This document shows positions 26,910 to 54,554 of a stretch of 55,507 bases of DNA, in pieces; position 1 is the stretch's first letter; each line of letters begins with the position of its first letter. Under the pieces are notes generated by a model. That model ran no database searches. It was not told where the DNA came from and worked only from the letters and a program-made list of their open reading frames with translations. Origin of the DNA: Chrysochromulina parva (Eukaryota > Haptophyta > Prymnesiales > Chrysochromulinaceae); NCBI GenBank assembly GCA_002887195.1, contig PJAB01000035.1, forward strand, positions 1 through 55,507, read 5' to 3'. Made by a program: the position numbers and the translations under genes.

Positions 26910-27356
26910 TCAATTCTTGCTCGGCACGCACTTGAAGAGCCCTTCGCGCACGCAGCCCGGCTGGCAGTCTTTCAAGAAGCCCGGATTGCAAGCAACCCCC
27001 TTGATGCTGACGGCTGGCGGCGGCACCCCTTTGTGATACTCGGCGATGGTCCGCGCAATGCTACCGAATGAGCAAATGAAGAAGAAGATATACGCGAGGA
27101 TGAGGAATGTGCTCTTGAACAAGCGATTGACGGACCCCTTGGGCGTCTTGTTCCACTCCTTGTCGTGCTCCGTCCGGCCAAAGACGTAGGCCATTGCGTG
27201 CGGGCTCGAGTCGCGGACGATGGGCGGGCCATACAGCCAGTAGTCGAGCCACTTAGGAATGCCCTTGTTCTTGGGGGCGTAGCCGCGCAACGAACTCGGT
27301 GAATACACCGCCTGAAGGTATCCGGGCTGCCGCTGCGCAAACGGGACGTCGGCCAT
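26910..27356 (-). CDS. Small single-pass membrane protein, unrecognised
   Basis: 148 residues from the ATG at 27356 (MADVPFAQRQPGYLQAVYSP). The N-terminal 80 residues are soluble, with aromatic motifs (GIPKWLDYWLYGPPIVRD). A single hydrophobic helix lies at about residues 86-107 (STFLILAYIFFFICSFGSIA). The C-terminal segment has four regularly spaced cysteines (GVACNPGFLKDCQPGCVREG and FKCVPSKN), suggesting a disulfide-bonded lumenal or extracellular end. It looks like a genuine conserved small protein, but I do not know the family. It is divergent from the TPR/EF-hand gene (267 bp). Confidence 0.7.
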   Translation of the reverse strand: MADVPFAQRQPGYLQAVYSPSSLRGYAPKNKGIPKWLDYWLYGPPIVRDSSPHAMAYVFGRTEHDKEWNKTPKGSVNRLFKSTFLILAYIFFFICSFGSIARTIAEYHKGVPPPAVSIKGVACNPGFLKDCQPGCVREGLFKCVPSKN

Positions 27357-27623
27357 CTGCAAAAAGCAATCTCGCCGAAGGTCGACCCCGGGATTCCTCT
27401 CAGGGGGGGGTCAAAAGCAAGCTCGTTCCCGCCGAGTGTGAAGAAAAGCTCTCAATCAGTTTCGTCGCTCGCTTTTTTTGCGTACGGCCGCGGCCCTCCG
27501 TGTGCGACGAGTGCCCGCTCCGCGAAACGCTGTTGCGGGCGCCGCGTGGGAGTTCTGAGCGTTCACCCAGCAGAATCCAGTCCAAATCTGCGACGAGTGC
27601 CATTCCAACCGTGCTTTTCACGA

Positions 27624-29729
27624 ATGCCTCGCCCGATTTGTACTCCCGAGTACAAATGGGATGCCCGGCGTCTGTCCGCACCCGTAGTGATGCCCGACGT
27701 TCACGTTCAATCTTCGCCGCCGCCGCAATCCAAACTCACGCCGGCACAAGCACGCTCAAAGCGCATCCTCGAGTCCTCGAGGCGACGCATGCCTGACAGT
27801 TCACTTGCCCCTCCCGAAGTCATGCCCGACGCGAATGTAGCCCAAGGCGTGTCGGCGAGACGGCTTCAGATGCAGAATGCCAGGGCAGCCCTCAAGGCAG
27901 TCGCGCAGCAAGACAAGGCCAAGGCCGAGAGTGAGGGTGCTACCGCGGGTTTTGCGGTAAGAAGTGACGCTGCTGCAAAGGAGGAGGAGATGCGGAAGGC
28001 CAAACAGGCCAAGGAGGAGCAAGCGAAGCGTGGGCGTGAGGAGGCTGCCGCCGCGCAAGCTGCGGGCAGGGTTGGCGCGGCCCAAAAGGCCGAGGAGGCG
28101 GCGCGAGCAAAGGAGGCTGCACGAGCAGGCGGCGCGGAGCAGGCGGCGCTCGAGCAGGAGCGGGCGCAGAAGCTCAAATCGGCCAACGCGAGCTTCGAGG
28201 CCGGGAGGCTTATGGTTAAGAAGGTAAAGTATCGGGAGGCGGAGGCGGCGTTCCGGACTGCGCTGCAGATCAGGTCAGAGGTGCTCGGTAAGCGCCACGA
28301 GGAGGTGCTCAAGGTTCAAACGGAGCTCGGCGAGGTGTGCATACGCCAAGACAACCACGTCGAGGCAGCGCGCCTCCTCCACGAGGTCTATGAGAGCTAT
28401 CTAGCGGCCAAGGGGCAGGCGGATGTGATGACCCTCAAAGTGGTCCATTTGCTGGGCAACGCGCTCTCCGCCAGTGCGCGCTACGAGGAAGCCGAGACGC
28501 TCTTGAAGCTCACCATCGACGCGTGCTCCTTGCAGTACGGCCCGAGTGCCAAGAATACGCTCGTTTTCAAGACGGGGCTCGGCTTGCTCTTTGACAAGCA
28601 GGATCGCCTCGAGGACGCAGAGCCCTTGTTGCGTGAGGCTCTGGCGGCGCGCCGGAGGGCAGCCTTGGTGGCCGTTGTGAGCGGCACGCATGATGTGAAC
28701 GACCTGTGCGCCTCGATGGGCAGCCTCGCCGTGGTGCTCCAGAAAAGGAAGCAGCCTGTACCGCTCGCTGAGGCGGAGGCGCTCTATCGAGAGGCGCTCG
28801 AGCTCACGCGCAAGCACGACGAGGGAAAGGAGAGTCGCACGTCCATTGGATTGATGAATAATTTGGCAGCGCTCCTCAAGCCCGAAGCGAGCCGCTCGGA
28901 CGAGGTTGAGCAGCTCTTGCGGCAATGCATCAAGGCCGAGAAAGAGCTCTATGGACCGTCGAACGGCGCGACTCTGAACACCACCGAGCAGCTCGCTTCG
29001 CTCCTGCATCACACCCGAGGCTTACACGCCCAGGCCGAGGAGCTGCTGCGCGACGTTCTTCAGGAACGTCGAGCCGCGCTCGGCCTGATGACCTCTGATG
29101 ACCTCTGATGACCTCTGATGACGTCTGATTGCCTCCCTCATCAGGAACGTCGAGCCGCGCTCGGCCTGGGTCATGAGAGCACGATCACGACGATGGTGAA
29201 CCTGGCGTCTGTCTTCCGTGCCATGGGCCAAACTCCGCAATCGGAAGCGCTGCTCAAGGAGGCGCACGAGGCAAGCCTAAAGGCGCTCGGCGCGGGGCAT
29301 TACAAGACCAAGCTGATCGAAAGGGACTTGACGGGCTTAGGCGCTGGTCCAAAAGGTACAGGAGGCTCCTTCGTGGCCAAAGGGTTCGACATGACGATTA
29401 AGACGCTCGGCGTGGCCTCGGGCTGGCAGGAACTCTTCGATAACTTCGACAATTCGGACGCGGGCCTGGAGGAGGCGTTTGCCAAGGTGGACACAGACAC
29501 GAGCGGCAAGATCGACGCCAAAGAGTTGAAGGCGTACATCCAGAGCAAGTACAAGTCAAACGGCCTTGACGACAAGACCATCGAAATAATGATGGCGGCG
29601 GCGGACACGAACAAAGACGGCGAGATTGACCTCGATGAGTTCAAGATGATCATGCGCGCTGGGGCTGGACCAGGGGCTGGGCCAAGCGTGGAGACAGAAG
29701 AGGAGAGCTTCCGAGCCGGCGGTTTGTAG
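27624..29729 (+). CDS. Kinesin-light-chain-like TPR protein with C-terminal EF-hand pair
   Basis: Two exons, 27624-29063 and 29145-29729, give about 674 residues from the ATG at 27624. Residues about 60-185 are an Ala/Lys/Glu-rich coiled coil. About 190-480 form tetratricopeptide repeats of the kinesin-light-chain type (YREAEAAFRTALQIRSEVLG, YEEAETLLKLTIDACSLQYG, LAEAEALYREALELTRKHDE, HAQAEELLRDVLQERRAALG, QSEALLKEAHEASLKALG). The C-terminus holds two canonical EF-hands (DTDTSGKIDAKEL and DTNKDGEIDLDEF). A stop would interrupt the frame at 29106-29108 unless 81 nt are removed. Removal restores a continuous TPR (VLQ|ERRAALGLGHES). The two domain types in one chain suggest a calcium-responsive adaptor; cargo is unknown. 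Confidence 0.85.
29064..29144 (+). other. Introner-like intron with 28-nt exon duplication (TPR/EF-hand gene)
   Basis: An 81-nt unit. It opens with a copy of the downstream exon and continues with about four TGATGACCTC-type repeats. It closes with TGATTGCCTCCCTCATCAG. The 28 nt at 29060-29087 are repeated exactly at 29141-29168. Splicing anywhere inside the repeat gives the same mRNA. With the CATCAG acceptor, the donor dinucleotide is GA rather than GT or GC. Intron status is inferred from the restored TPR frame and the family resemblance to kinase introns at 42331-42519 and 45265-45469. Confidence 0.75.
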
Positions 29730-41731: not shown

Positions 41732-44700
41732 TCACCTCATCCGCACCGCGGGGAAGCGCAGCAGGGACTCGGAGGCAGCTGAGTCGCGATCCGAGCCGCG
41801 GCTCGAGTCCGAATCACAAGATAGGCGCGACGAGCGCAGAGAGTGCAGCGAGTCGCGGATCGAGTGACGAAGCGAGGTGCGGATCTCCGGCGACGAGTAC
41901 TCGAGCGTAAGCGCCTCGAACTGCTCGTTCATCTCGACCGAGAGCGGCTTGCGCAGCGGTGAGAGCACGGGTGCCTCGAGGGTGTACTTGGTGTCGAAGT
42001 TGGACACGTCGCTCGTCGGGTCGGCGGCATTCAGCGTGGGCACAAACGGCGCCTCAAGCTTCCCGAGCATCAGCAGCTTCCAGTTCAGGTTGCGGAAAAA
42101 CGGGTGTGTCTTGAGGGAGGCAAAGTCGGACTGACACGTGGGCGACTCTTCTCGGACACCGAGCCGCTGGGCGGGGTCCTTGGTGAGAAGCCCTTTGATG
42201 AGCCCCTTGGCCTCATTCGTGAACCATGAGGGCAGCCGCAGCTTCGTGTGCACGATCTTGCGCTGCAGCTCCTTCTGCTCCTTGTGCCACCACGGCGCCT
42301 CGCCCGTCATCATCTCGTAGAGCAGCACACCTGATGAGGGAGGCAATCAGAGGTCATCAGAGGTCATCACACCTGATGAGGCGTCATCAGATCGTAGAGC
42401 AGCACACACCGAGCGACCACACGTCTCATCAGAGGTCATCAGAGGTCATCAGAGGTCATCAGAGGTCATCAGAGGTCATCAGAGGTCATCAGAGGTCATC
42501 AGAGGTCATCAGCACACACCGAGCGACCACACGTCCACCGCCTGGCCACACAGCATGCGCCGCAGCACCTCGGGCGCCATGTACTCGGTCGTGCCAACCA
42601 GCACAGGCCGGCCTGAGGCGGACGTGTGCGTGGCGGAAGCGGTCAGCCCAACAGCTGCGAGCCCGAAGTCACAGAGCTTCGCGTTCCCGTCGGCGCAGAT
42701 GAGCACATTCTCCGGCTTGAGGTCGCGGTAGATGATGCTCTGCGCATGCAAGTGCTCGAGCGCGAGCATCACCTGCCAAATAAGGGAGGTCATTAGGGAG
42801 GTCAATAGGGAGGTCAATAGGGAGGTCATTAGGGGGGGTCATTAGGGTAGCCATGAGGGTGCTCGAGCGTCGTGACGATCACCTCGGCGGCATAGAAGCG
42901 CGCCATCTTCTCCGAGAACATCTCATGCGCCCTCAGGTGCGCGAAGAGCATGCCGCCCGGCACGTACTCCATCACGAAGTGCAGCTTGGACGCGCTCTGG
43001 AAGGCACATTCGAGCCCGAGGATGAACGGGTGGCGCGCCTCGGCATGCTGGCGCAGGATGCTCAGCTCGATCGCAATATTCTCCATCGAACGATAGCGTT
43101 CAATGGACGCCTTATCGACCACCTTCATCGCATAGATCTGGTGGTTGAGGTGGCAGCGTACTTGAAAGACCTTGCCGTAGCCTCCTTTGCCCACGAGCCG
43201 CAGTAGCACAAAGTCATCCATGGAGAGCGTGCGCATGCTTGCCGTCTCCGCCAGCTCGAGTTCCTCCACGAGCGCCTCCACCGCCTCCGCCGCCGCCGCC
43301 GCCGCCACACGTGCCACAAAGTCCCCATCGAGCGGCGACGCGAGGTGCTCACCATGGCGCTCGTTGGCGTCGCTCCTTACGCTGCCCGCCGCCGCCTCCT
43401 CCGCCGCCTCCGCCGCCTCCGCCTCCTCCGCCTCCTCCGGCGCCGAGGTCGACCGCAGCAGCGCGGCGAGGGCCGCCGTGAGCTCTGCCGCTGCCGCTGC
43501 GGCATGCGCCCCATCGTACCGCGGCAACTCGCCGGTGATCAGCGAGCGACTCGACGGTGGCACGATGATCTTAAGCACTACGGGGGGGCTCGGCGGCGTC
43601 GTTGCGGGCGGCATCGTCGGCGCGCCCGCGCCGGCGTCGTTCTCGTCAGGCATCATCGAAGTGTCTGGATCGGCCAGATTGAGCGTCGTCGCGGGCGTCG
43701 TCGTCGTGGGCGGCGCAGTGCCCGTCGGCACCGCAAGCTCGTCTGTGACCGTGGCGCTGAGTGGTGGGCGCTGGCCGGCGGCAGCAGCGGCGGACGTTGA
43801 GGCGCCGACGGCGGGCGCGCTGCGCTGGGCACCTGGTGGCGGAGCGCCGTGCTGGGCGGCGGGAGGCAGCTTCATCGAGTGTGGGAAATTGTGCGGCGGA
43901 GAGTGCCGAGGGTGAGGGGTGTCAGGACCGTGCAACGGCTCCCTGATCTCGTCTTCGATCTCATCGTGCAAGGGCTCCCTGATCTCATCGTCGTGCGCCG
44001 CCTCGATCGACATATGCACCGGATCCGATGCTGCCCACGACGGCGCGGCCGCGCTGCCGGCCGCGGCCCACGACGGCGCCATGGGAGCCGCGACGGCGCC
44101 AGTGCCGGTGGGTGCGGCAGCAGGGGTGGGTGGTGTGACCGAGGAGGAGGTCGAAGAGGCGGGCGTGGGTGTGGCCGAGGAGGCGAGGAAGGAGGAGGCC
44201 GATGAGGACGTGGAGGTGGCTGTAGTGCTCGACGCGGCGCTCATGCGCAGCATCGAGGAGACGGAAGCTGCCTCTAGCCCCCCGCTACCCGCCTTGGCCC
44301 CCGGCGAGAGGGGGCCGCTGCTCGCTGTGGGCGGCGGCCGGCTATGTAGAAGCGATCCATGGCTTAGGGTGGCGGGGAGGGCATCGAGGTGACGCAGCTC
44401 TCCCAATGCGGTGGCAGACGCGCTGCTCTGCTGCTTGATCTTCTGTGCCGAGGACTTGAACTGATACAGCCGATCCAGCATTGCCTGGCCCTCATCCGCT
44501 GATGCGCCCGCGACGGCGCCGGCGCCGCGTCCGCCGCCGCCGCCGCTGGCGCCCACGCCGGCGCCGGCGCGTCCCCCCCAGGCCCCCGCAGGGGGCTGCT
44601 TGCGCCACGTGGCGTCGGGCGACGCGCCGGCGGCACTGGCGCCGAGGCTGCTCCCCCACGCGCTCGGCTTGGGCGTGGACGTGCTGAGTGGGCGGGCCTC

Positions 44701-46720
44701 CTCCTCCTCGCGCGACTCGCGCGGCGCCACGTGTACGGTCTCGACCGTTGGTGCCCGCCACGGCGCGTGCATGGCCGCGGCGGCCGAGGAGGCCGAGGAG
44801 GCCGAGGCGGCCGCGGAGGCCTGCGGTGCGCCCGGCTCGGCGGGCATCGTCAAATCCGCCTCCTCCCACGAGGCCACGGAGACGGTCGACATGCGGTTGC
44901 TCGGTCGGCCTGATGGGCGGGCCGAGGGCTGCAGCGAGCGAGCGTCCGGCGCCGTCGTGGGCACCGGCGCGGCGGACGGAGCGGCTGAAAGAGGCGGCGC
45001 GGGGGGCGCAGGTGGAGCTGGTGGCGCAGATGGAGCTGGTGGCGCAGGCGGCGGTGGAGCTGGCGGCGGTGGAGGCGGAGGAGCGGCGGAGGGCGGGCCG
45101 TCGGCGCCAGCTGCGGCTGCGGAGGCGTCTGCGGGGGCAGCTGCGGGGGCGGCTGCGGGGGCAGCTGCGGAGGCGTCTGCGGAGGGCCATCGCCCCTCGT
45201 CATCACGAGCCATCTGGCGCTGCAGCGTGGCCAGCTCGTACTCGAGCTGTGGAATCGAGAGCACCTGATGAGGGAAGCCATCGGAGGTCATCAATGAGGC
45301 AATCAGAGGCAATCAGCTCATACTCGAGCTGTGGAATCGAGAGCACCTTGGCCTGTAGGGCCTCGGTCAATCAGAGGCAATCACAGGCAATCATAGGCAA
45401 TCAGCGGTCATCAGTGAGGTAATCAGAGACCATCAGAGGCCATCAGAGGCCATGAGAGGCCATCAGTACCTTGGCCTGTTGGGCTTCGTTGAGAGGTTTG
45501 CCATCAGCGTGCTCCTGCTGCACCGCGAGGGCCTGCCGGAGCTTCTTGAGGATCGCGCGCTCGCGCTTCTCCGCCTCGCTCTTGGCACTGCTCGTGGCCT
45601 CGGCGGTCGGGGTGCCCGCCAGGTCGTACGAAACTGCCGCCTCGGCCATCGGCTGAGTCTCGGCAGACAGCGCGCCCTGCGCCTCTGCGGCCGCCTCTGC
45701 GGCCGCCCCTGCGGCCGCCTCGGCTGCCTCGGCCGCCTCCGCCGCCTCGGCCGCCTCCATCCTGGCTCGTAGCGCCGCCTTCTTCCTCTCCCGCGCGGCC
45801 GCCTTCGCAGCGGCCGCCTCATCGGCGCTCGCCACGGCGCTCGCCACGGCGCTCGCATCGGCGTTCAGCACGGCGCTCGCATCGGCGCTCAACACGGCGC
45901 TCGCCTCGGCGCTCAGCACGGCGCTCGCCTCGGCGCTCAGCAGGGGTTTCGTCACGGCGCTCGCCTCGCTGGCCGTGGCACGGCCCTCAGCTGATGGCGT
46001 GACAGCCCCCCCAGCTGCCCCGACGGGCAGTGCCGTGTCAGTGGCCTCGGCCGATGGTGGCGCCGCGGCCGCGGGCGGTGGCGTGGCCGCGGCCTTGGCG
46101 GCGGCCACGTCCTCAGCGGCCGTCTGCGCGGCCTCCAACTGCGCCTCCGCCGCCGCACGCTCCTCCTTGAGCTCTGCCTCGCTCGCAAGCTTCTGCAGCT
46201 GCTCCGCGGTGAGGGTCTTGGCCTCGAGGCTGCGTAGCGAGAGGCACATCGACCCGGAGGGCGTGAGGCACATCGACCCGGAGGGCGTGAGTGGCATCCC
46301 GATGGGCAGCTCCAGGCGGCAGCATGTGCGTTGCGGCGGCAGTGCTGACCTTCGGATTTCCTCAATCTGACGCAGCTTCTTCGTGAGCGCACGGATGCGC
46401 TTGTTCAGGGCTGTTACGGGATCGTCGATGGACTGCGCGAGACACAGCCGCGCTCTCGGGTCAGCAGCGGGAAGAGCGGACACGGTGCTGAGCATGATGG
46501 GCACGTCGCGCGGGTCTGTGCAGCTCGTTTCACGCACCACCACAGCCGTGGATGGCCCCTCGGTTGCCATCGCCGTGGTAGGCGCACAGCCAGTATTCGC
46601 AATGCCGACGGCCACAACGAATACTGAAGGCAGCACACAGCGTGTGATGATTTTGCTTCTCGCGCCTCCGTCGGCTGCGACCTCAAACGAGGTCGCTAAA
46701 AAATGAACTTTGTCATTCAT
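41732..46720 (-). CDS. S6K-like AGC protein kinase with very long N-terminal extension
   Basis: Four exons on the minus strand: 45470-46720, 42883-45264, 42520-42772 and 41732-42330, about 1494 residues; lengths and phases (0, 0, 1) close exactly. The C-terminal kinase runs [82 protein letters not shown] and [20 protein letters not shown]. The AGC tail [16 protein letters not shown] matches the S6K/SGK type, with a weak hydrophobic motif ([11 protein letters not shown]). The first 420 residues hold two helical modules ([38 protein letters not shown]) like the C-terminal helices of eIF2A and PYM, separated by SAEASAVL repeats. About 650 residues of disordered Ala/Pro/Ser sequence follow. It is possibly a translation-linked kinase; that link is inference. 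Confidence 0.85.
42331..42519 (-). other. Introner-like intron 3 of the S6K-like kinase
   Basis: 189 nt, donor CTCG|GTGTGTG, acceptor CCCTCATCAG|GTGTGC, phase 1, giving LGVLLYEM. It holds eight perfect AGAGGTCATC units (42431-42510). It also holds an internal fossil copy of the exon junction: 25 nt at 42400-42424 equal 42510-42534, and 16 nt at 42392-42407 equal 42315-42330. Confidence 0.85.
42431..42510 (-). repeat. Perfect 10-bp x8 tandem array inside the intron
   Basis: Eight identical AGAGGTCATC units (GATGACCTCT on the coding strand). It is the same unit as in introns at 29088-29130 and, degenerate, at 45266-45465. The complete uniformity suggests recent expansion. Confidence 0.95.
42773..42882 (-). 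other. Introner-like intron 2 of the S6K-like kinase, diverged
   Basis: 110 nt, donor GCCGAG|GTGATCG, acceptor TTTGGCAG|GTGATGC, phase 0, giving [12 protein letters not shown]. Its 5' end resembles the start of the downstream exon (GTGAT, then CGCTCGAGCAC in both). The rest is CCTAATGACCTC-type repeats. It looks like an older member of the same family. Confidence 0.85.
45265..45469 (-). other. Introner-like intron 1 of the S6K-like kinase, two-step structure
   Basis: 205 nt, donor GCCAAG|GTACTG, acceptor CCCTCATCAG|GTGCTC, phase 0, giving [15 protein letters not shown]. An internal CTACAGGCCAAG|GTGCTC (45346/45347) duplicates the upstream junction and splits it into 123-nt and 82-nt units, each starting GT and ending AG. 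The 82-nt unit starts with a 33-nt copy (one mismatch) of the downstream exon. Confidence 0.85.
45836..45960 (-). repeat. Coding minisatellite in the kinase N-terminal region
   Basis: Five to six 24-nt units of the type GGCGCTC(G/A)(C/G)... encode [16 protein letters not shown] repeats. A second, shorter tandem repeat (24 nt x2, near 46240-46290) encodes TPSGSMCL twice. Both are in frame and should be length-variable. Confidence 0.75.
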
Positions 46721-46845
46721 CTACGAATCTGACTCGCTCGAAAAGTGAAATGGTGTGCATACACAAAGATTGGTCAACGAATCGCGCCAAATTTTTGCCT
46801 TGAGAAAGAAATGAAGCGAGCAGGGTCAGCAGGTCTCGCCCGAAC
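46721..46845. promoter_or_regulatory. 125-bp divergent promoter, kinase / UFD1-UBX
   Basis: The ATGs of two long genes face away from each other with 125 bp between them. The gap is AT-richer than its flanks. No TCAAG array or GACT box is present; a GAAAAGTGAAATGG word and AAATTTTTG are notable but unassigned. Confidence 0.4.
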
Positions 46846-49107
46846 ATGAGCGCCTCCAAGTGTTCGACCTGTTGCGTGCGCTGGGCCGACCCCTCAGCGG
46901 CGGATGGCCGCTGCCGCTCGTGCGCACGAAATTTGGGGAGCGCCGCAGCCGATGGTGCTCCCGCGGCGGCCCCCTCACTCCGTGTGGCGGCAAATGCCGT
47001 GAGGGTCGCCGCTCCGCGTCCTGGCGCAGCCGCCAACCCTGTTGCCCGGACCGCCGCGCCACCGATTCCCACCAAAGCCGCCGCGCCCGCGGGCCGAGCC
47101 CCCGCCAGCGGAACTCGCCCAGCGACCCTTCCCGGATCACGTCCGTCGTCAACCCGTCCCGGTACACTCAGCACTGCAGCCGCTCCCGCCGCCCAAGGGC
47201 CACCTCGGCCGTCGCCAGCGTCGCGCGCGGCGGAAGCTCGTGCTGATGCCGCGGCGGAGCTTCGTGCTGCTGCCACGGCGGCGCGCGCCGCGTCGTCGCG
47301 CGCGGCGGAAGCTCGTGCTGATGCCGTCGTGGATGCTCATGCAGCCGCCGAGGCGCAAGCTCGTGCTACTGCCGCTTCGGAGGCTCGAAGTGCCGCCGCG
47401 TCGGCGCGCCCATCACCGCGAGAGCCTCGTGCCGGCGGCGGCGACGACGACTACCTCCTGCAGGCAGTGCTAGCAGCATCCCTCGAGGAGATGGCCGGTG
47501 AGGACTTTGTGGGCCGACTTGGCCTCGGTGGCGCGAGCGCGGTGGCGCCGGCGAGCCTCGCGGAGCTGCGCGCGATCGTTGGGGAGGACGCGAGCGACGC
47601 CGGGCTCGAGCGGCTCATCCTGCAGGCCGACGGCGACCTGAGCGTGGCGCTGGAGCTCTATCTTGCTTCGCCTGTAGCGTACGCGAGCGATGCGGCCGCA
47701 CTGGTGGAAGACGACGACGGGAGGGGAGCTGCGAGTTGCATTGAAGGGGTGTGGGCTACAACGCTTGCGCTGCTGCCTCCGGAGGATGCCGAGGAGGCTC
47801 ACCAGGCGTACGTGTGGCGCGGCGATCGGATCGTGTTGCCTCACGCGGCGCTCGGTGCCTTCTTGGACGCTCTCCATGCGCGCACTGGCCGCCGTCAGCC
47901 GCCCAACCCAATATGCATGCGCCTCAGCCTCTCAGGCGCGTCGCGCGTCTGTGGAATCGCCGACTGGAGCGCGCCCGAGGGTACGGTCATCGTGCCGCAG
48001 TGGCTGCTGGACGAGATGACGATGGCGTCGGGGCGCGTGGCGACGCTCGGCGAGCCCGTGGGTGTGGAAAGTGCGGACGTGCCCCGCGCCACCTCCCTCT
48101 CATTGCGTCCTCTCGGCCAGGCCGTGCGCCTCCTTAGCCGCGAGCGGCAGGTCGAGCTGCTCACACGGGGCGTGCAGGATATCTTCACGAACGTGCGAGT
48201 GGGCGATCACCTCGACATCGCCGGTGAAGGGGGCGGCAAGTTCGAGGTGGTTGCATGCCGTGGCAAGTTGGATGAGCAGGTGGGGGGCGCTGGGGCCTCA
48301 CGCGGCGGCGGCGGCGAAGACGCGCGCGGCGGCACCACGCAGGAGGCCGTTTGCGTGGTCGCCGCCGACAACGGTGATCTCGAGTTCGATCTCGATCTCG
48401 AAGAGAGCGTCGAGCGTGAGGGTGCGCGGCTTCGGTTCGAGGCGGCGCGAGAGGCGTACAAGCAGACGCTCGAGGGTGCGGCGATCTCGGGACGATCTCG
48501 GCTGCTGCTCGACGAGCAGATCGCGCGAGATCAGCTGCGCGCGCTCGTGAACGCGGCGGACGAGGCAGTCGAGGCGGGCTGTGAATTCGGCGAGGAGCTC
48601 GATCTCGCGCGATCTGGCCTGCAGGCCGCCGATAGGCTCGTCGAGTTGGAGCGGTTGGCACACGAGGCCCAGGCCCAGGCCGAGGCCGCTCGCGAGGCAG
48701 AGGCAGTCGGTCTCGCCCAGGAGGCGTTCCAAGCGCAGGCGGCGGCCGAGGCGGCGCGGCAAGAGGCCACTGCGCTCGCGGAGCAGCTCCAGGCGCGTCT
48801 GAGCGCTCTGGTTCCCGCTGAGCCGGAGGTTGGAGGCATGCCCATCCGCGTGCAGTGGCCGCACGGCGGCCAGCTGCAACGCCGCTTCGAGGCCTGCGCC
48901 ACGCTCGAGCAGGTGCGCGCGTGGGTGGTGACTGCGTACCCGGCCGACGCGCCCACGCCGCTCACCGAGGCCTTTGTGCTCAAGACGCGCCCTGTGCCCG
49001 GCACGCCCACGATCAAGCTTGACGATTCCAACCGGCTCGTGACCGTCGAGGAGGCGGGATTGCGCGGGCAGACGCTCATGTTTGACTTGTCCGGGGGCTG
49101 TCCATAG
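46846..49107 (+). CDS. UFD1-like / UBX fusion protein with UIM and UBA-like modules (p97/Cdc48 cofactor)
   Basis: 753 residues from the ATG at 46846. An N-terminal Cys cluster (CSTCC at 6-10, CRSC at 23-26) may bind zinc. An Ala-rich repeat region follows (about 125-190), then a UIM-like helix (DDDYLLQAVLAASLEEMAG, 200-218) and a UBA-like bundle (LAELRAIVGEDASDAGLERL, 238-275). Residues about 325-515 match the UFD1 double-psi barrel: GDRIVLPHAALGAFLDAL, WSAPEGTVIVPQWLLDEM, ATSLSLRPLGQ and GVQDIFTNVRVGDHLDIAG. A coiled coil follows (about 520-650). A C-terminal UBX/ubiquitin-like fold spans 665-748 (PIRVQWPHGGQLQRRFEACA, EAFVLKTRPVPG, EEAGLRGQTLMFD). UFD1 and UBX proteins are separate Cdc48/p97 adaptors in most organisms; here they are joined with ubiquitin-binding parts. 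Confidence 0.85.
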   Translation: MSASKCSTCCVRWADPSAADGRCRSCARNLGSAAADGAPAAAPSLRVAANAVRVAAPRPGAAANPVARTAAPPIPTKAAAPAGRAPASGTRPATLPGSRPSSTRPGTLSTAAAPAAQGPPRPSPASRAAEARADAAAELRAAATAARAASSRAAEARADAVVDAHAAAEAQARATAASEARSAAASARPSPREPRAGGGDDDYLLQAVLAASLEEMAGEDFVGRLGLGGASAVAPASLAELRAIVGEDASDAGLERLILQADGDLSVALELYLASPVAYASDAAALVEDDDGRGAASCIEGVWATTLALLPPEDAEEAHQAYVWRGDRIVLPHAALGAFLDALHARTGRRQPPNPICMRLSLSGASRVCGIADWSAPEGTVIVPQWLLDEMTMASGRVATLGEPVGVESADVPRATSLSLRPLGQAVRLLSRERQVELLTRGVQDIFTNVRVGDHLDIAGEGGGKFEVVACRGKLDEQVGGAGASRGGGGEDARGGTTQEAVCVVAADNGDLEFDLDLEESVEREGARLRFEAAREAYKQTLEGAAISGRSRLLLDEQIARDQLRALVNAADEAVEAGCEFGEELDLARSGLQAADRLVELERLAHEAQAQAEAAREAEAVGLAQEAFQAQAAAEAARQEATALAEQLQARLSALVPAEPEVGGMPIRVQWPHGGQLQRRFEACATLEQVRAWVVTAYPADAPTPLTEAFVLKTRPVPGTPTIKLDDSNRLVTVEEAGLRGQTLMFDLSGGCP

Positions 49108-51303: not shown

Positions 51304-54085
51304 TCAGAAGCCAGTGAAGAGCTCCGAGTCGGCGGGCTTGCACGGCTTCGCATCAGTGACGATTCTCTCCGCGGGCAGCCATTCGTACTTGGACGCATCG
51401 AAGAGGGGAGGCTTAAAGGCAGAGCCGCGCTGCGCATAGTCGGTCCAGTCGAAGCCCGATTTGGCATAAAAGGGGTGCTCCTTGATGTCCTTGCAGCCGT
51501 CGCGCAGGTTGCCATACCGCTTCGAGATATCCTTCTGGAGCAGCTTGGAGATCAGATCTGCCGCATCGATGTTCATCTCGGGCGGGTAGTGGACCGTGCC
51601 GTCGAGGATCTTTTGGTACGTCGCTAGGTGGTCCTCGGCCTCAAAGGGCGAGTGGCCGTTGAGCATCTCGTAGAAGAGAACGCCCATCGCCCAGTAGTCG
51701 ACTGCCTTCGAGTGCCCCTTCTCGAGGATGATCTCAGGCGCGAGATACTCTGGTGTTCCACAGAGCGTCCACGAGCGGTACTTGATGACCTTCGCGAAGC
51801 CAAAGTCGGTCAGCTTGAGCGCGCCGTCCTGGGCGACCAGGATGTTCTCGAGCTTGAGGTCGCGGTGTACGATGCCCATACTGTGCATGTACTCGAGAGG
51901 AAGCATCACCTGCCGAGGGCGAGCGACCGCGGGCGGTAAGTGGGGGTTGTGTGTGTCTGTGTAGGGGTGGGGGTGGGGAGGAGGGCAGAGGGCGGAAGGC
52001 GCGTGCCTGCGACACGTAGATGCGCGTGTCGGGGACGGAGAAGCGCTTGTGCTTATACAGCTGGTCGAACAGGTCGCCACCCGGGCAGAACTCCATGATG
52101 AGAATGAGGTTGGACGGGGTGACAAAGCCGGCCCACTTGTTGGTAACGAATGGATGCGCTATCCTGTCGAGGATCTGCGTCTCCTGCATAATGTGCTCCA
52201 CCTGGCCCATCGAGACAATGTCCGCCTTCTGCATCTGCTTGAGTGCAAAGACCTCGCCTGTGCTCCTCACGCGGCATCGGCGCACTGTACCGAACGCGCC
52301 TTCGCCGAGCGTCCCTTTGGTCACTGTGAAGTCACTCAGCGTCATCGGGCGCTGCGCCTTGATGTACTTGTGCTCGTTGGGCATCTCGACGCCTGCGCTC
52401 GCGCCGCCGGTGCTCTCCGCGTCCGCGTCGCTTGCCTGCTGCTGCAACTCGGCGCCGCTCGCAGTGTACTTGCGCATCGCGAGCAGTTCCCCCAGCGGCC
52501 CTAGAAGCCGTTGGAAGGCGCCGCGGTCCATACGCACGACGGTCGTGCCCGCGGCGGCGGCGGTCACTGACGCCATCGTGGGCGCCCCCGTCTTGAGTGA
52601 CAACTCTCCGAAGTAGTCTCCCTCCCTGCGACGTGCGAGCTCGCCCTGGCCCGCCTTGGTGATCACCACCTCGCCTCGCACGATCACATAAAAGTGGGTG
52701 CCTTCCTCGCCCTCGGTGATGATCGCGTCATCCTGGGCGTAGGTGACCTCCTCGAGCGCATCCACCATGCGGTTGCGCTGGTCCTTGTCCAGCGGCGCGA
52801 GCAGTGGCACCTTTTCGAGGAACGATTCATAGCTCGCCGCCTTCTTCGTGTTCGCCTCGAGCACGATCGTGCGGAACGAGACGCGATCGAGCGACCATAG
52901 CACAACGGGAGTCGCCGCCTGGATCGTCGCCGTGCGCGGGCAATTGTACATGAGCGCGAGCTCCCCAAACGACTCGCCCGCCCGGAAGCCCCTGACGCGC
53001 ACCGGGTGGCTGTCGGGATCCTCCCCCTGCACAAACGCATCGAGCTCGCCACTGTCCACGATGAAGAAGTGGTTCCCCTTCTCGCCTTGCGTGATGACAT
53101 TCTGACCGGGGTGTATTGTGTGCTCCATCATGGCCTCCTGCAGCATCGTCAGCTGCATCTCGTTGAGCCGCGAGAAGATGACGTTGCGACTCACCGCCCC
53201 CATGATGCGCGCTACCTGCTCCGTGGTCTTTTTCTTCCCAGATGCGACCTTGCCGGTCAAGACGCCTGTCGTCGCCTCCGCCGCCTCACCAAAGCGGCGG
53301 CCGCGCATCTTGCTGCCGGCCGGGGCGCCCTCAGCCTTGAGCGCGAGCTGCTGCTGACCCGCCTCCCGCACGAACGCATGCAACGGCACCAGCTTCAAGA
53401 AATCCTCCTTTCGGAACGTGGCGCACCACACCGCCGTCTCCGCGCGGCGTGTCTCCTGGTGCTTCGAGTTCTGCAGAAGCTCGACGTGCCCAAAGTAGGC
53501 CTGCCGGCCGTACTTGGTGCTCTCGGCTGGGCCGCCCGCGACCGCGACCACCGTGCCTTCACGCACGACGAAGAACTTATTGTCGCCCGGTGTGCCGACC
53601 TCGTGCATCGTGGCGCCTGCCGCGTAGCGCACCTCGCGGCACGCGTCGGCGAGCAGCCCAAGCTCGTAGTCTTCGGAGAGCTCGGCGAAGATTGGAAGCA
53701 GCCTGAGAAAGGGGACCCACTCGGCGCGCTTCTTGACGATCTTGTCGCCGAGCGCTGCATTGAACGCGCGCCGATTCACCATGAGCAGAGTCACCTCCGG
53801 CGAGGTCGCCATGATGCTCGCGCTGCGCGGCTTGCCGGTCAGCAGCGAAAGCTCACCGCACCACGAGCCGGCGGTGAGGGAGCGGACGTTGCGCCGCTCA
53901 CCCGCGCTGTCCGCCATCCACACGTCGCACGTGCCGCTCTTGATCAGGTAGAAATTGTTGCCCTTGTCCCCTTGCCGCATGATGACCTCCTGTTGCTTCA
54001 CCTGGACCTCTGCCATCGAGTCGACGAAGCCTCTCCGCTCCTCGTCGGTGTCCATGTAATTGTGCAGCAGCGCACAAGGTGGCAT
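51304..54085 (-). CDS. cGMP-dependent-type protein kinase with four cyclic-nucleotide-binding domains
   Basis: Two exons on the minus strand, 52007-54085 and 51304-51909, with a 97-nt GC-AG intron, give about 894 residues. The start at 54085 (MPPCALLHNYMDTDEER) is the first ATG; the frame is open upstream with no ATG, so an upstream exon is possible. Four cNMP-binding domains follow. The first (WCGELSLLTGKPRSASI) and third (FGELALMYNCPRTATI) have intact phosphate-binding cassettes. The second (YFGHVELLQNSKHQETRRAE) and fourth (FGELSLKTGAPTMASV) lack the key Arg or Glu. The kinase follows: TLGEGAFGTVRRCR, ALKQMQKADIV, IVHRDLKLENILV, LTDFGFAKVI, WTLCGTPEYLAPE, and the AGC tail FDWTDYAQRGSAFKPP. 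Four cNBDs plus kinase resembles apicomplexan-type PKG more than animal PKG. Confidence 0.88.
51910..52006 (-). other. GC-AG intron of the PKG-like gene
   Basis: 97 nt, donor GTGTCGCAG|GCACGCGCC, acceptor CCCTCGGCAG|GTGATGC, phase 0; the joined protein reads RIYVSQ|VMLPLEYMHS. The body is pyrimidine-rich with CCCACCCCCACCCCTACAC. GC donors are frequent in haptophytes and some other algae. It sits at the same kinase subdomain position (before V/I-M-L-(A/P)-L-E-(H/Y)-(L/M)-H) as intron 2 of the S6K-like kinase. Confidence 0.85.
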
Positions 54086-54554
54086 GACCTCGAACGAGCC
54101 CGCCGCCGACTTGAGTTGCCTGAGATCCCAGCAGCGCAGGTGCGCGCAGAGGCGTGAGAGCAAAGGAAGAAAGCGCAGACGAAAGGTGAAGCGGCCTCAG
54201 GACGTCAAGGCGCGCCGGGTTCAAGCGGCAGGGGAGGAGCGTACGGTCGCTCATACGTCTTCTGGCCGCTAGCAGGCGCAGCCGTGGGCATCGGCACAGG
54301 CAGTCGCAGGCCGGTCCGCGGCGTGAAGAGAGGAAAGTGCAGTCGCGGTTCGGCAAACTTCGAAAGCGCCAAGCCGAGCGCACCCTGAAAGAAGTCAAAA
54401 TCGGTCTCAGCTATGGCATCGCGTCATCCCGGCACCTCGCGGTGCTTTTCAACGGTGGGGAGTCGGGACATAAAACGGTAAGCGCGCGGCGCGCACGGCC
54501 GCGACATGAAAGCGTCTTCGAGTCTCGGCCGCGTGCCCTTTTTCTCCCGCGAGC
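54086..54554. other. Divergent upstream region of PKG and the FkbM gene
   Basis: About 470 bp, possibly including an unrecognised 5' exon of PKG (its frame stays open to about 54163). A GGCGCGCC-rich area is present. No pentamer array or GACT box was found. Confidence 0.4.

Follow-up and report, generated by a model that had tools for sequence, protein, structure and literature searches.

A genome-wide family of repeat-built introns, often with duplicated host exon, read as introner-type insertions at widely staggered breaks

The closest described systems are the introners surveyed by Gozashti et al. 2022 (PMC9860276). In the accessible text of that survey, as here, similar introns stand in unrelated genes and their splice sites are split in various ways between the insert and the target duplication, including cases in which the 3' site is carried and the 5' site is recruited. 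GC and GA donors also have a precedent there, and a Chrysochromulina sp. is among the introner hosts, with 4-bp repeats and a carried 5' site. The footprint is different: the repeats flanking the insertion site are given as 3–9 bp, whereas those described here are 13–36 nt long in the clearest class. The survey filtered out low-complexity families, rich in short repeats, and admitted only those whose similarity started close to the two intron boundaries, whereas the introns of the present family open with 13–36 nt of host exon. Under these two rules this family would probably have been missed, and because the main survey set such families aside as low complexity, counts of introns gained in this way may be too low.

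Other systems share some of the same traits. The introner elements of Amoebophrya (PMC7789003) likewise have inverted repeats near the intron ends, direct repeats across the exon/intron borders and non-canonical splice sites, but the direct repeats are of 3–5 nt, the inverted repeats are of 8–20 nt and a tandem-repeat body is not described in the accessible part of the paper. New introns in Daphnia (PMC4202315) have direct repeats of exon at the intron's far end, which the authors read as staggered breaks; these repeats are shorter, however, at 4–12 bp, and the portion of the paper available does not describe the inserts as one sequence family. In the tandem genomic duplication of potato RdRp (PMC4974935, partial text), as in some copies here, AG|GT in the duplicate gives both splice sites, although the intron body in our case is a common repeat and not exon. 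Long repeats at intron borders are not unheard of in themselves, since a survey of 213 introns of all classes gives, in its accessible text, direct repeats of 4–30 bp (mean 11.4, mostly imperfect) at or near the borders. The present family is not reported in the literature searched, which included the accessible parts of PMC9860276, PMC7789003, PMC11782384, PMC4202315 and PMC12768974, most subscription papers and supplements being outside that coverage. We read the repeat-built introns as a probable variant of introner with a footprint unlike that of the introners in these papers, as insertion at widely staggered breaks would leave.

The window, that is, the whole stretch of 55,507 nucleotides analysed (contig C35, G+C 64%), contains four such introns in two genes, at the coordinates and in the common coding-sense orientation given by the first-pass annotation (Table 1). 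With its introns removed the AGC kinase gene yields a single Pkinase match of 225 bits, against 69 and 34 bits for the separate open frames, and the kinase domain is continuous once 42331–42519 is taken out; removal of 29064–29144 from the other gene allows a TPR repeat (TPR_12) to span the junction. A protein cluster 99% identical to the TPR/EF-hand product (P0121) reads into the 29064–29144 insert, with one residue changed there, and the insert is therefore not an assembly artefact.

Table 1. Positions in the window of the four repeat-built introns, of the exon copies associated with them and of their host genes.
Feature	Position	Strand	Description
TPR/EF-hand gene	27303..29729	+	Stop-to-stop open frame; start codon not fixed
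Intron	29064..29144	+	81 nt, TPR/EF-hand gene; begins GA not GT, ends AG
Copy of next exon's first 24 nt (original 29145-29168)	29064..29087	+	24/24 identical; 0/300 controls as good
Repeat body, TGATGACCTC units, end TGATTGCCTCCCTCATCAG	29085..29144	+	
AGC kinase gene	41732..46720	-	Exons 46720-45470, 45264-42883, 42772-42520, 42330-41732; spliced product 1,494 aa, one frame
Intron	45265..45469	-	205 nt, AGC kinase gene, GT..AG, two insert units
Copy of previous exon's end, intron-internal	45347..45365	-	17/19 identical; 0/300 controls
Copy of next exon's start, intron-internal	45314..45346	-	32/33 identical; 0/300 controls
Intron	42773..42882	-	110 nt, AGC kinase gene, GT..AG, degenerate 12-bp units, acceptor TTTGGCAG
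Weak gapped exon copy	42852-42882	-	Reached by 1/300 control windows
Intron	42331..42519	-	189 nt, AGC kinase gene, GT..AG, read as three consecutive insert units
Copy of previous exon's end, intron-internal	42410..42425	-	16/16 identical; 0/300 controls
Copy of next exon's start, intron-internal	42382..42407	-	24/26 identical; 0/300 controls

Three of the four introns share the acceptor CCCTCATCAG, as had been noted, and the same three have the 10-bp unit that had been ascribed, in exact or degenerate form, to all of them (29085–29129, 42426–42512 and 45368–45466 by Tandem Repeats Finder); in the fourth, the unit of the array at 42783–42847 is 12 bp. The inverted ends CTGATGA and TCATCAG do pair in the predicted fold of 29064–29144 but show no such pairing in 42773–42882. 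A copy of the following exon had been placed at the start of every intron. It lies there in 29064–29144 and, weakly, in 42773–42882, which we infer to be an older or divergent member of the family. In the other two introns the placement was wrong: the next exon's copy lies within the intron, behind a stretch that repeats the end of the previous exon, and none of the 300 control windows scores as well as these internal copies. Both introns look like two or three insertions stacked at one place.

To judge from their sequence, the four window introns are real members of a large genome-wide family. The search of the whole assembly (45.07 Mb, 2,199 contigs) that the first-pass annotation had suggested returned the exact double unit TGATGACCTCTGATGACCTC at 1,267 places, overlaps within arrays being counted, the acceptor core GCCTCCCTCATCAGG at 1,030 and CCTCTGATTGCCTCCCTCATCAG at 131, and there were no matches to the reversed patterns used as controls. 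Arrays or repeated acceptors stand at the end of contig C21 and at the starts of C1071, C1158 and C1299, so the assembly may break at large arrays and the copy counts may be underestimates. At the sequence level our reading covered 194,585 bases in 45 merged loci, one of them the window; these loci were selected by repeat and acceptor patterns, so that intergenic and antisense copies are sampled with bias. The host genes in these loci are unrelated, with a kinase, an RRM protein, an aldo-keto reductase and a deaminase among the products. The intron body is a 10-bp tandem repeat, that is, low-complexity sequence, and in the class ending in CATCAG the family similarity reaches the 3' boundary of the intron but not the 5' boundary, where the host exon copy lies. 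Among loci picked by the repeat unit alone, together with the window, 8 of 21 arrays have the CATCAG end and 13 lack it.

The hallmark of the family is that host exon is directly repeated on the two sides of the array. With repeat units and the terminal block masked, such a duplication flanks 53 of 120 arrays (29 of 44 loci) against 0 of 600 mismatched-locus controls at a score of 13, and an earlier masked scan of the same arrays gave 53/120 against 0/120. When tandem units were merged, the duplication was present in 26 of 94 array clusters (22 of 45 loci) against 1 of 470 controls at a score of 12; starting instead from acceptors with repeat units, an upstream copy of the next exon was found in 41 of 83 cases, against 1 of 83 when an exon from another locus was substituted. 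The remaining 68 of the 94 clusters keep no recognisable duplication in the merged, masked scan, where duplications shorter than about 12 nt are missed by construction, and these clusters may be old or may have formed otherwise. The duplicates vary in length, from 13 to 36 nt in the clearest class and from 12 to 36 nt over the 26 clusters, and perfect ones include those of L081 (30/30), L088 (24/24) and L060 (18/18).

The 26 clusters were divided automatically by the origin of their splice sites. In eight, the insert gives the AG and the donor opens the duplicate (13, 14, 18, 19, 22, 24, 30 and 36 nt); six are similar except that the exon also ends in AG; five were called as having AG|GT inside the duplicate; in two (L025 and L088) the AG ends the duplicate and the GT comes from the insert; and in five the automatic call was unclear. 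By eye, only L029 and L067 of the AG|GT calls are clear, L051 being a tandem unit and L069 and L076 resting on AGGC, while further clear AG|GT copies occur in L011, L036, L039 and L079. The reverse arrangement, with a duplicate ending in AG and an insert beginning with GT, was noted in L088 (duplicate of 18 nt, ending CAG), L025 and L069. The insert of L088 reads GTTCGTCACG...ATCATCACGA and is perhaps a second insert family.

The arrays are also biased in orientation. Codon scores trained on three genes of the window (3,098 codons) were applied to the 44 other loci, and when both flanks of the 81 arrays outside the window were considered, 47 were sense, 30 mixed and 4 antisense. All 15 arrays with two coding flanks were sense, and single coding flanks were sense in 60 cases and antisense in 2. 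Reverse-oriented arrays before a GT, found in six places, are uninformative, since a forward array with a duplicate ending in AC would match the pattern as well.

Splicing is predicted here, intron removal being judged by frame and homology. Among 34 introns with a 5' exon copy, 25 begin with GT, three with GC, one with GA and five otherwise, the last including starts inside tandem units. The spliced frame is open for at least 300 nt on both sides in 13 of the 34; mis-splicing by 1 and 2 nt lowers this to 6 and 4, and the other strand gives 3. At 150 nt the count is 18 against 13 and 9 for the mis-spliced controls and 13 for the other strand, and at 60 nt the spliced frame is no better than its controls (22, 22 and 22 of 34; other strand 25). 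The frame evidence is thus weak at lax cut-offs and rests on the longer spans and on the domains. A frame that reads through the intron and is open for 60 nt both ways was found in 0 of 34. Ten of the 20 spliced products with at least 90 nt on both sides were compared with Pfam: nine had a match and in seven a match spanned the junction, namely RRM, zinc knuckle (residues 291–304, junction at 300), Fn3-like, poly(A) polymerase head, aldo-keto reductase (L048, with only 6 residues beyond the junction on one side), cytidine deaminase and EML propeller (L081, below the curated cut-off). The window adds the junction-spanning kinase and TPR matches.

The RRM gene L008 provides the one comparison with an uninterrupted site. 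All three near-identical protein clusters (93–98% identity) read into the insert, giving the residues of the duplicate, then TDER and then the end of the protein, as the insert sequence predicts. The next 20 of 20 relatives (P0244–P0263; the best 23 of 101 matches were aligned) read through the site, one of them diverging about ten residues past it. One relative, P0251, sits on a 261-kb contig and is probably genomic, whereas others may be transcripts, so the site is open in the protein and not necessarily in each DNA. For this one gene the pattern fits a recent intron gain. From frame, domains and relatives together we infer that splicing would remove exactly one duplicate plus the insert and leave the mRNA unchanged.

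We propose, with a probability of roughly 0.82, that the window introns and the family to which they belong are of the introner type, an insert that we call X having entered at widely staggered breaks and the splice sites having been assembled from duplicate and insert. X would consist of units of TGATGACCTC, often with the common 3' end CTGATTGCCTCCCTCATCAG, and would insert into exons. The two strands would be cut about 13–36 nt apart, so that the host exon between the cuts came to lie on both sides of X; the duplication itself can be read directly, and its long and variable extent points to cuts set well apart. In one class the GT donor stands at the start of the duplicate and the AG acceptor at the end of X; this class is the commonest among the loci read, whose selection was based in part on this acceptor. 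In other copies AG|GT within the duplicate gives both sites, or the duplicate ends in AG and X gives the GT. The exon behind the intron still begins with the donor dinucleotide, and [duplicate + X] could therefore multiply in tandem with the mRNA unchanged. Such tandem units, mostly GT..AG, are seen in L081, L048, L056 and L044, and stepwise or all-at-once splicing of these could yield an identical mRNA. Mutation of X and of the inner duplicate would then age the intron.

An introner-like origin had been put forward in the first-pass annotation by comparison with Micromonas and Aureococcus. It gains support from the presence of the family in unrelated genes, from the frames and domains restored by removal and from the L008 site, filled in one group and uninterrupted in 20 of 20 relatives; the comparison is apt as regards the outcome but breaks down at the insertion footprint, which is 13–36 nt and variable in the clearest class rather than 3–9 bp. 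The origin of new introns is an old open question, and the present genome contains one acceptor core more than 1,000 times, many of the copies read retaining duplications that would record how insertion took place.

Within the proposed scheme, copying of X via RNA by target-primed reverse transcription and use of a DNA fragment have about equal odds. One possibility, which we hold tentatively, is that X was retroposed: a LINE-type reverse transcriptase would have copied it onto a nicked target from RNA, which may have been an excised intron. Staggered nicking is consistent with long duplications that differ in length, the arrays are in sense orientation, and in 65 terminal acceptors the sequence becomes more conserved closer to the 3' end of X, even outside the CATCAG by which they were selected. 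The genome also contains genes with reverse transcriptase domains, and in one family of these the upstream frame looks endonuclease-like by eye. However, selection for splicing alone can yield a sense bias, the one LINE 3' end read has a TTAC repeat and not X, and the excess of microhomology at the left joint falls short of significance (mean 1.1 against 0.73, P about 0.14). An anchored 3' end also sits poorly with a CATCAG end in only 8 of 21 arrays and with the two units inside window introns that stop in mid-unit. The narrower idea that introners of this family travel as RNA, with intron RNA (excised or nascent) being reverse-copied onto nicked exon DNA and leaving long variable duplications, we consider somewhat unlikely; if true, splicing and reverse transcription would jointly spread introns, which would thus be gained through RNA while leaving a clear footprint in the DNA.

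The LINE-like elements examined, on contigs C1434, C2182, C103, C324 and C34, form two families by eye (L091, L092 and L094; L093 and L095), the second of which has the endonuclease-like upstream frame and includes the C34 copy ending in the TTAC repeat. A LINE with X at its 3' end was sought among five reverse transcriptase matches, of which one 3' end was read and had no X, while the other LINE continued past the end of the stretch covered.

Capture at the DNA level is another possibility, to be held as tentatively as retroposition: fragments of X would be end-joined into staggered double-strand breaks and only splice-competent insertions would survive. The variable ends of X and the three different splice-site arrangements are consistent with this, and the accessible text on new Daphnia introns reports direct repeats of 4–12 bp from staggered breaks (PMC4202315). 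Against it, the inserts belong to a single sequence family whose acceptor core occurs more than 1,000 times, and chance capture would require a source of X fragments to explain this.

Cut-and-paste elements duplicate a fixed short target. The idea that X is a non-autonomous DNA transposon, that is, a MITE-like introner with CTGATGA/TCATCAG as short inverted ends, appears improbable to us, as the duplications are 13–36 nt and variable against the 3–9 bp given in the accessible text of PMC9860276, and 13 of 21 arrays lack the CATCAG end. The inverted ends are nevertheless present in the CATCAG class, and in 10 of 22 copies, those with a clean start of X, the distance from the duplicate's end to the first TGA is −2 to +3 nt, which hints, post hoc, at a defined left end; in these copies the 5' end of X tends to coincide with the start of a unit. 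The putative terminal inverted repeat is 7 nt, with pairing seen in the fold of 29064–29144, and many arrays are without CATCAG. It is very improbable that minisatellites expanded inside ordinary older introns, the exon copies being later rearrangements, for although the body is a tandem repeat whose units multiply locally, the same repeat and acceptor stand at unrelated sites, the repeat is flanked by an exon copy whose start often coincides with the splice site, and the RRM gene's relatives continue across its insertion site.

The CTGATGA and CTGA motifs of X resemble those of a hammerhead ribozyme or a C/D snoRNA, but Rfam had no match in the window at the gathering threshold. For six loci at E values up to 1, the five Rfam matches obtained fell below gathering and were confined to L088, two being to C/D-box families over the insert and three to microRNA rows elsewhere. 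As to viral carriers, two X patterns had 0 exact matches in IMG/VR, and folding of intron RNA gave z scores of −1.34 and 0.92 for two introns. Elsewhere in the window, a 24-bp tandem repeat at 45823–45962 lies in exon 1 of the AGC kinase gene and keeps its reading frame, and an open frame at 46804–49107 (+), divergent from that gene, matches the UFD1 N-terminal domain and, weakly, UBX. A kinase exon at 51734–54196 (−) has four cyclic-nucleotide-binding stretches, and its best named matches are, like Chrysochromulina, haptophytes: Haptolina brevifila at 71% identity and Chrysotila carterae at 70% over a shorter part.
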